Positions 1 through 6,050 of a stretch of DNA of 33,529 nt are shown piece by piece. Positions within the stretch are counted from its first letter, which is position 1, and every line of letters begins with the position of its first letter. The stretch covers positions 1 through 33,529 of the forward strand of contig JAIXMX010000010.1 in NCBI GenBank assembly GCA_020328155.1, read 5' to 3'. A program made the position numbers and the translations under genes. A model generated the notes under the pieces. It was not told where the DNA came from. It ran no database searches and worked only from the letters and a program-made list of their open reading frames with translations. The DNA comes from Candidatus Endomicrobiellum agilis. Lineage in GTDB: Bacteria > Elusimicrobiota > Endomicrobiia > Endomicrobiales > Endomicrobiaceae.

Positions 1-880
1 TTAAAAGATTTGATGAAGTGCTTGGCGGAGGCGTGCGAGACGGCAGGCTGTACGCTTTGGGAGCAATAAGCAGTTTAGGTAAAACAACATTTGCTTTGAA
101 CATTGCTGATAACGTTGCGAAGGCGGGACGAGATGTATTAATTTTCAGCCTCGAGATGAGCCGAATGGAATGGCAAATGAAAAGTCTATCGAGACAAACT
201 TATCAGAGGTGTTTAGATGAGAAGATAAACGCTAATGAGTGCGCCGTATCGTCTATGAAACTACTAACACAGGCAGAAAAGAATTAACCGAACAACAAAC
301 CGAAGCACTCCAGAATGCAATTACAGAATATGCGAAAACCAGCGAGAGAATTTATATCAAAGAGGGCATCGGCGATGTCGGTCATAATCAAATCCGCGAT
401 ACAATTGCAAACTTTATGCAAGTGAAAAAAAACAGCCGTCCGTTAGTCATTATTGATTATTTACAACTTATGTCGTCGCCTGACCCAAAAAGCCGATTGC
501 TGGATAAGCAAATTGTAGATAAAAATGTGCTGGAACTGAAACGCATGACGCGGGACTTCAACCTGCCGATAATCGTCATTTCATCTTTTAACCGCGAAAA
601 TTACACCAGCTCAGCAAGTTTTCAGGCGTTTAAGGAAAGCGGGGCAATCGAGTACTCTGCCGACGTTGTAATCGCGTTGGAGCTAAACGTAAATAAAGGC
701 AGTGACGGAAAGATACCAGAGGAAGCAATCAACAACGCTAAAAATGCAGACCCGAGAGATGTAAAACTTGTCATTTTAAAAAATAGATTTTATAAAGCGT
801 GGACAATTACGTTTTTTAATTATTATCCTGCATTTGATTATTTTGAAGAAGACGAGGAAAAAAATGAGAAAAAAAAATAA
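1..880 (+). pseudogene. DnaB-like replicative helicase (AAA/RecA fold), partial and frameshifted
   Basis: This is a RecA-fold helicase of the DnaB type found on phages and mobile elements; it would unwind DNA at a replication fork. The gene enters from the left edge. The first frame, open from base 3 to 287, holds the Walker A motif GAISSLGKTTF and the segment DVLIFSLEMSR. The second frame, open from 239 to 880, holds the Walker B region VIIDYLQLM, then ELKRMTRDFNLPIIVISSFNREN and FKESGAIEYSADVV, all typical of the family. The two halves join without loss of conserved sequence if one indel lies at about 239-250, so the gene is probably a recent frameshift pseudogene; no slippery sequence is visible there. 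The start is outside the window. It reads towards the lipoprotein array and is the best sign that this block belonged to a mobile element. The family call is firm; loss of function is inferred. Confidence 0.8.
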
Positions 881-1675: not shown

Positions 1676-1733
1676 ACCTATCCTATCCTATCCTATCCTA
1701 TCCTATCCTATCCTATCCTATCCGGACAGGCGG
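1676..1733 (-). repeat. (ATAGG)9 start-site repeat plus conserved flank, before gene B
   Basis: Nine perfect CCTAT units (1677-1721, followed by CC) read ATAGG on the coding strand and end one base before the ATG. They are followed by CGGACAGGCGGAAG, a variant of a flank also seen beside the arrays at 3128 and 5997 and the two-unit copies at 2060 and 6505. Each unit carries a possible Shine-Dalgarno base triplet AGG and a TAG stop. Because the period is 5, three units are enough to place a stop in every reading frame. Confidence 0.9.
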
Positions 1734-1880
1734 AAGTAATAATAAATTTTTTAATGAAGTCGGAACTGCTTAAATTCTTCTTTGATTATTGGGCTTAGCC
1801 ACCAATAAGAGGAAAACTGTTTGGAGTTGCTTTATTTATTTATCATCGCCACTAGGAGGCGGAGACCTAGCAGAACCCTT

Positions 1881-2058
1881 TTACCAAGAGCAACTATAAA
1901 AACCTTTACAAATTAGACCAAGAACAATAAGAACAACACCTATACTGATACCGATTTTAGTTTTGGTATCAGTTTTGTCAGGTTGAGATTTGTTAAGCTG
2001 TTTGCCACATCCTGAGATTAAGACTATACATAATAATAACGATATTATTTTTTTTCAT
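1881..2058 (-). pseudogene. Short lipoprotein, out of frame by one base at an A8 run (array gene C)
   Basis: From the ATG at 2058 the frame is wrong because the A-run after the start (bases 2048-2055 on the plus strand) has eight residues. With one A fewer it would read MKKIISLLLCIVLISGC, then a short Lys/Thr/Asp-rich linker, one membrane segment (IGISIGVVLIVLGLI) and a short tail KGFYSCSW, ending at the TAA at 1881. The length of 178 bases is one more than a multiple of three. The leader is clearly homologous to those of the genes at 4421 and 6091. Two ATAGG units stand before the start. It is either a pseudogene or a gene switched by the homopolymer, through DNA slippage or RNA polymerase slippage. 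The sequence cannot tell which. Confidence 0.7.
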
Positions 2059-2059
2059 T

Positions 2060-2084
2060 CCTATCCTATCGGGACAGCGGGACG
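2060..2084 (-). repeat. (ATAGG)2 start-site element before gene C
   Basis: Two CCTAT units at 2060-2069 are followed by CGGGACAGCGGGACGG, the same flank as at the longer arrays. The element abuts the end of the upstream gene at 2087 almost directly, so it forms the whole junction between the two genes. Confidence 0.75.
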
Positions 2085-3126: not shown

Positions 3127-3183
3127 ACCTATCCTATCCTATCCTATCCTATCCTATCCTATCCTATCCGGACGGCAGGAGAT
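3127..3183 (-). repeat. (ATAGG)8 start-site repeat plus conserved flank, before gene E
   Basis: Eight perfect CCTAT units at 3128-3167 plus CC are followed by CGGACGGCAGGAGATTTTTA. The same flank, including GCAGGAGATTTTTACATC, recurs beside the array at 5997-6050. The distance from the last unit to the ATG is identical to that at gene B. Confidence 0.9.
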
Positions 3184-3273: not shown

Positions 3274-4176
3274 TTAATCATTGTTATATCCATCTTCTTG
3301 GTCGCTGTCTTCAACATACGCTTGACCAAAGATTTCAACAGTCTCTCTTCCCGGCGGTATTAAGCTTACAGGGTAATACCATTTTTCGGGTTTCCCTTCA
3401 GCTATATATCTTATTCTAAACCTGTGTTTAGAATTTTCAACAAATTTTAGCTTCTCTCTTTTTACCTGTTCTCTTCTTTGCCGTTCTTTCAGTCCTATTC
3501 TGGGTTCTCTTTTTTTTTTAGGTCTTTTCTTGGTAATTAGTTTTTTACTTATTACTTGAGTACCTTCTACTTCTTCTGTAATCTGCTCTTCTTCTTAGGT
3601 TTCAAACTCTGATTGTTTCTCTTCTTCTTCATTTTCGCTTACGTATTCAGATTCACTTTGGTCGCCTAAGGAATTCTTAGTCTTCTTTCTTTTTATTTTA
3701 CTCCTTTTTTTTGGAGTCTTAGGAATTAGGTCTGACTTATCAAGTGTCTGGTCGTCCTTGTTTTCATTCAACTCATCATTGGGCTTTTTTTTCTTTTGTG
3801 AGCCGCTAGAAAAAGCTGATTCTGCTTCTTTTTTAGTAAACATCTTCTTAATTCCGCCCCACGCTTTGCCGTGCAGGTTGTACTTGTAATCGCACAAGGC
3901 AAATATAAAAACCGCTATTGCAGCCGTAGTTATTGCTATAGATTTCCAATGAGCAACAGTCCAATTCCACGCTGGACGCAGGTATCCGTCAAAGGTTCCG
4001 ACCTCTTCCTTAGTCTTTTCATCATTTATCTTTTTTATTTCTGCGGGCGACCTGCTGTCGCTCCGACCTGCTGTTTCCTACTGCTGAGCTTTTGGCGCTT
4101 CTGGGGATTGTAAAGTCTTCCCACAGCCTAGCGCTAAGCTCACACATACAAGCAATGCCAATATCTTCCTTTTCAT
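3274..4176 (-). pseudogene. Lipoprotein gene with two in-frame stop codons (array gene F)
   Basis: A single frame of 300 codons runs from the ATG at 4176 (AGGA 8 bases upstream) to TAA at 3274, interrupted only by TAG at 4078-4080 (codon 33) and TAA at 3595-3597 (codon 194). The first part is a lipoprotein leader, MKRKILALLVCVSLALGC. After the TAG come a linker, a membrane helix at about codons 78-95 (SIAITTAAIAVFIFAL), a basic stretch and a long Lys/Glu-rich region. After the TAA the frame continues for 106 codons with composition like a protein (KHRFRIRYIAEGKPEKWYYP). The layout of leader, linker, helix and charged tail matches the other array genes. Two nonsense mutations without any frameshift point to recent inactivation, or to readthrough. 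No ATAGG array is present at this start. Confidence 0.7.
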
Positions 4177-4420: not shown

Positions 4421-4581
4421 TTATACCTCCACTTTAGGCGACGCTGAAGCTAACAGCGATGATGATGGACTTGGATTGATCTGATTAGCAGTTTTGTCAG
4501 GTTCAGATTGAGATTTGCTAAGCAGTCTATCACAGCTTGAGATTAAGATTACAGCTAACAATAACGATATACTTTTTTCAT
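4421..4581 (-). pseudogene. Short lipoprotein with a one-base deletion in the leader (array gene H)
   Basis: Compared with the gene at 6091-6498, one A is missing in the fifth codon, so the frame from ATG 4581 closes at once. Restored, it reads MKKVISLLLAVILISSC, DRLLSKSQSEPDK and a Ser/Pro-rich tail without a membrane helix, about 53 residues in all, ending in TAA at 4421. Its last codons contain the GGAGG of the next gene. The leader and its upstream DNA are homologous to those of 6091-6498. One full ATAGG unit and part of another precede the start. A recent frameshift pseudogene is the simplest reading. Confidence 0.65.
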
Positions 4582-5995: not shown

Positions 5996-5996
5996 T

Positions 5997-6050
5997 CCTA
6001 TCCTATCCTATCCTATCCTATCCTATCGGGACAGCAGGAGATTTTTACAT
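5997..6050 (-). repeat. (ATAGG)6 start-site repeat plus conserved flank, before gene I
   Basis: Six perfect CCTAT units at 5997-6026 are followed by CGGGACAGCAGGAG and ATTTTTACATC. The flank is the same as beside the array at 3128. The start here is GTG instead of ATG, but the spacing is conserved. Confidence 0.9.

Follow-up and report, generated by a model that had tools for sequence, protein, structure and literature searches.

An eight-A run behind a start codon probably marks the recent loss of a single gene from a large, duplicated lipoprotein set of Candidatus Endomicrobiellum agilis

We found a run of exactly eight As directly behind the start codon of a lipoprotein gene copy in the 33,529-nucleotide stretch analysed here (the window), and this run is best read as a recent homopolymer slip that inactivated one copy of a large duplicated lipoprotein set, that is, as gene decay and not as a switch (probability roughly 0.7). 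The Lys-Lys codon run of an ordinary lipoprotein leader would recently have gained one A by replication slippage, and the extra A would have silenced one member of a set that is shaped by gene birth and death. The copy would then make no product, and the change would be a fixed mutation. An earlier note on this DNA had left the choice between a phase switch, a sequencing error and decay, with a lean towards rescue by slippage; decay fits best among these, while the lean to rescue is poorly placed, as set out below. The A8 run itself matters little; on this reading, it is an instance of how members of such an extensive gene set are routinely lost.

Read directly from the window, the minus strand has an ATG at 2058-2056 followed by eight As at 2055-2048, which appear on the plus strand as T8 at 2048-2055 and CAT at 2056-2058; the position and length given in the earlier note are thus correct. 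The start codon is preceded by the Shine-Dalgarno-like sequence ATAGGATAGGA (2059-2069, minus strand), an abbreviated version of the GGATA arrays found in front of other leaders. As the DNA stands, frame 0 closes after 21 residues (1993-2058, minus strand; 21 codons with stop). If one A is skipped, a 58-residue reading opens (MKKIISLLLCIVLISGC..., 1881-2058, minus strand), which comprises a leader, a short linker and a hydrophobic segment and ends in TAA at 1883-1881. Its lipobox (LISGC) and positively charged n-region mark it, by reading and by its homologues, as a bacterial lipoprotein, and the Pfam model LPAM_1 scores 13.9 bits against it, below the 20-bit cut-off. An alternative start for the lipoprotein frame was considered and rejected: a TGA in this frame overlaps the ATG, and no ATG, GTG or TTG was seen in it between that TGA and the lipobox. 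The claim that seven As would open a 58-residue lipoprotein therefore stands in frame, length and lipobox; "complete" must be qualified, however: next to its paralogues the body lacks a Pro/Thr-rich linker, and the conserved tail lies beyond the TAA.

Both of these changes emerge from the comparison with the four closest paralogues (L026-5208, L027-3785, L027-2612 and L030-9461). Across codons 3-33, the A8 copy carries no substitution at any site where the four agree; it does have a letter of its own in codon 4, but there the four are not uniform either. The slip accordingly appears to be young. The paralogues' Pro/Thr-rich linker is missing at the junction 1956-1961 (minus strand), a loss that keeps the frame, and the TAA precedes a remnant of the conserved tail (KGSARSPPPSGDDK, 1836-1880, minus strand), which continues in the frame of the leader. 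The run thus breaks a frame that is homologous to others, and the body shows further, if modest, degradation, the rest of it being in frame. One of the four paralogues, L026-5208, is itself cut by a TAG. Their own A runs measure A4, A6, A6 and A6, and since none of them has A7, we can only infer A7 as the former state of the A8 copy; four other leaders do carry an in-frame A7 ahead of the identical letters ATAATA. With an undamaged leader and a linker loss that keeps the frame, a gene that had only just been switched off would look much alike.

The same comparison bears on a sequencing or assembly error, by which the true run would be A7 and the 58-residue lipoprotein would be made. This is a draft genome of 23 contigs with similar paralogues, and the A8 leader has no unique substitution where other paralogues agree, both of which such an error would accommodate. 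The four closest paralogues, however, have other letters at the run, so that collapsing them would not yield A8, and the missing linker and tail would persist whatever the run length. Moreover, sequencing tends to call long homopolymers too short, not too long. We therefore regard an error as unlikely.

The run is real but ordinary, and a length of eight is not special in this genome. Counted on both strands of the window, A8 occurs 34 times, where dinucleotide shuffling leads one to expect 41.8; a count of 34 or more came up in 82 of 100 shuffles, so that an enrichment of A8 in the window is rejected. The window's 21 long open frames, which total 19,986 bases and bear gene names of our own reading, contain 11 A or T runs of at least eight, and 535 of their 637 Lys codons (84%) are AAA. 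Across the genome, ATG followed by at least eight As is found at 16 places and the same pattern read backwards, as a control, at five. A runs are thus somewhat commoner behind ATG than in the control, an excess that AAA-coded lysines near gene starts would also give. By reading, two of the 16 places are in-frame starts of long open genes, of 430 residues (A8) and 87 residues (A9). The idea that missing mismatch repair makes such runs hypermutable was rejected as well, since the MutS and MutL frames of this genome are open over 864 and 636 residues. The earlier note had invoked rescue in AT-rich reduced genomes, but with a GC content of 38% the window is not very AT-rich.

The lipoprotein set to which the A8 copy belongs appears to be a large, duplicated, lineage-specific expansion under birth and death. 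The homology of its leader to others, already proposed from the sequence, is borne out by 72 matches of the 58-residue reading within its own genome at E<=10. At E<=0.01 this reading has no match in 17 genomes of the same genus and one in 12 more distant genomes; among the matches listed in named genomes, at least five leader matches come from unrelated bacteria. A profile of five paralogues matches, at E<=0.01, 68 places in the window's genome; in the 40 other genus genomes it matches six, spread over three of them. An A8 leader run is absent from all six; by reading, five keep their frame, and for the sixth no in-frame start codon was seen. They include no orthologue with which a kept frameshift could be compared, and the body of the A8 copy has itself changed. 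From scripted searches around the matches of the 58-residue reading we hand-picked 104 lipoprotein leaders in the 1.286-Mb genome, 92 with an in-frame start and 12 broken; rows resembling noise were left out by eye, and the list falls short of a complete census. For 12 of the 92 intact leaders a body homologue was not found within the list, and single members may therefore not belong to it. Three leaders stand outside the counts: C11:1798 (intact, A7), C11 near 122137 and C18 near 29925 (broken). Many members combine a lipobox and a linker with a second hydrophobic segment, which is present in 56 of the 66 intact-leader frames of at least 100 residues. Four contigs (C2, C7, C11 and C21) start or stop within about 600 bases of a listed leader. 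Our search of the literature on Endomicrobium and lipoproteins gave no title on this gene set, and the word "lipoprotein" is absent from the main text of two Endomicrobia papers (PMC11257099, PMC8809381).

How the leaders of this set break favours decay in several respects. The 12 broken leaders, with lesion types assigned by eye, divide into three that are broken by the length of the A run (one +1, two -1), five with indels elsewhere and four that lost the start codon; lesions are thus mixed and mostly lie outside the run (9/12), which favours decay. The three run-broken leaders are the A8 copy and two with A6, L030-3599 and L043-1696, whose following letters are shared by 28 sister leaders that have A7. 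Indels are about tenfold denser in A7-type runs than elsewhere in the leaders (3/280 versus 5/4680, Fisher p 0.008, with rough denominators), as is expected of a homopolymer. A second lesion, in the form of a body break, was detected in all three run-broken copies, whereas of the 80 intact-leader copies that have a homologue 22 show one (p 0.025; a crude tblastn test with n=3, in which some of the 22 flags look due to remnants further on). Among the nine leaders broken outside the run, two of the seven with a homologue have a body break, against the same 22 of 80; this counts against our reading, as the breakage of a leader does not, as a rule, bring visible decay of the body after it.

These observations also bear on a phase switch, in which DNA slippage between seven and eight or nine As would toggle the lipoprotein within the population. 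The placement of the run directly behind the start codon, the three leaders that differ at their A run in both directions, the excess of ATG with at least eight As over the reversed control (16 versus 5) and the wealth of other short tandem repeats in the gene set would all suit such a switch. Run-off copies with sound bodies were not found, however, as the crude test flags a second lesion in each of the three, and all 37 listed A7 leaders are in frame; both findings favour decay. The ordinary length of the run and the open MutS and MutL frames weigh in the same direction, and we consider a switch at this site quite improbable.

More striking than the A8 run are two kinds of tandem repeats that are associated with the lipoprotein genes. 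First, the genome contains 17 perfect GGATA arrays of three to nine copies, three of them in the window (1677-1723, 3128-3169 and 5996-6027) and 14 elsewhere. In 13 of the 17, three bases separate the end of the array from the start of an intact leader of our list, which puts the array in the position of a Shine-Dalgarno sequence. One (C11) lies a few bases further upstream of an unlisted leader, two (C18 near 29939 and C6 near 3297) are followed by leader-like remnants that contain a stop or lack the lipobox Cys, and behind one (C10 near 4725) no leader can be recognised. The 22-base form of this array is absent from 40 other genus genomes. Second, by our own matching of search outputs, 16 arrays of the hexamer ATATGT (L029:1798-2400, L033, L031, L041 and others) lie within coding sequence and all encode (Ile-Cys)n in signal peptides of the form MKKII(CI)n, whose length varies widely, up to about 12 copies; their 24-base form occurs in this genome only, out of 41 genus genomes. 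Neither repeat changes the coding frame, since GGATA lies upstream of the gene and each hexamer adds two codons. A literature search for pentanucleotide repeats combined with Shine-Dalgarno sequences and phase variation gave no paper. The whole lipoprotein set might be a contingency system of a protist endosymbiont, with start A runs, GGATA arrays and Ile-Cys arrays each varying on its own and the A8 copy representing an "off" state, but we hold this to be about as doubtful as the switch at the A8 site itself. The A8 copy does point to a lipoprotein expansion specific to this lineage, in which tandem repeats of two kinds occupy fixed functional places and which would merit a test for variable expression; its clade includes symbionts of termite gut flagellates.

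Varied breakage is also apparent in the immediate neighbourhood of the A8 copy. The window holds, by reading, eight lipoprotein genes between 1337 and 6498, three of which are broken, each in a different way. Besides the A8 copy these are a paralogue at 4421-4581 (minus strand), whose leader is out of frame by a one-base loss outside the A run according to our own reading against sister leaders, and a lipoprotein gene at 4081-4176 (minus strand), which the paralogue comparison and the body-break test show to be interrupted by a nonsense codon with homology continuing beyond. At the start of the window (1-880, plus strand) lies a dnaB-type helicase copy that is split in two: compared with the open C10 copy, a short CA repeat in it has two inserted bases. 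Copies of this helicase adjoin lipoprotein arrays here and at L026:2859-3705, and small-plasmid helicases are what the open C10 reading resembles most, with a best identity of 50% to Streptococcus thermophilus and 819 matching plasmid records. This resemblance hints at integrated plasmids. For a neighbouring 118-residue protein no relatives in viral contigs were confirmed, and a 204-residue neighbour gave no match in phages.

The relationship to known endosymbionts is given by a contig of another genus genome (G052) that matches pRSTT2, a plasmid of Candidatus Endomicrobium trichonymphae, without a difference over 5,752 bases; by its genus assignment the window genome is thus a congener of that species. 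The window genome is thus probably that of a symbiont of termite gut flagellates. Similarly built lipoprotein genes are seen on small plasmids of Ca. E. trichonymphae (L097, L098, L099 and L102-L104), and the annotated features of four of its plasmid records are all named hypothetical proteins. On these plasmids, a leader ending in KKIFAVILML has an in-frame A7 in four copies (three pTGRD and the 5,038-base pRSTT, all found with one sequence pattern); in a fifth homologue, on pRSTT2, the start region is shorter and the frame is likewise open. The two pRSTT plasmids other than pRSTT2 are numbered presumptively, by record length. A leader at 3686 on what is presumably pRSTT3 seemed out of frame, which proved to be a script artefact, as the frame opens at 3619. 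The pTGRD and pRSTT lipoproteins share with the A8 set the lipobox leader and, in some cases, the Pro/Thr-rich linker and a further hydrophobic segment, but differ from it in leader sequences and bodies.

The rescue of slipped genes by slippage of RNA polymerase has been described for Buchnera and Blochmannia. Like the genes rescued there, the A8 copy has its frameshift in a poly(A) run. In the cited portions of these studies, corrected transcripts make up 12-50% at long poly(A) runs in two endosymbionts (PMC5009743), and single-nucleotide deletions during transcription in Buchnera, more than half of them in homopolymers, rise with run length (PMC5574713). The E. coli polymerase is described, in the part of the work cited, as without detectable slippage below eight As (PMC6260861), which places A8 at the limit. 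The direction of the commonest slip is wrong here, however, and the run is of minimal length. Only the removal of one A, the addition of two or a +1 ribosomal shift would open the lipoprotein frame. From the sequence, one extra A in the RNA gives ATG AAA AAA AAA TAA, a stop after four codons, and a ribosome that shifts by -1 on the As runs into TAA as well, so a rescue is poorly placed. As far as the cited sections of the survey of E. coli and Buchnera go, insertions dominate A/T runs during transcription (151 of 157 Buchnera insertions, against 16 of 57 deletions, lie in such tracts), deletions are seldom tied to runs, and a restored reading frame was not detected (PMC5574713). Rescue of the A8 copy thus seems very improbable. 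Decay of the A8 copy has its closest likeness in Blochmannia vafer, for which the cited part of the genome report describes eight genes with tract frameshifts that are possibly corrected, and in which homopolymer frameshifts would start gene loss (PMC3017870). Both cases combine a one-base change in poly(A), an otherwise readable gene and a symbiont with a small genome, whereas the run described here is only eight bases long, lies in a window of 38% GC and belongs to a gene that is one of many paralogues and carries further lesions.
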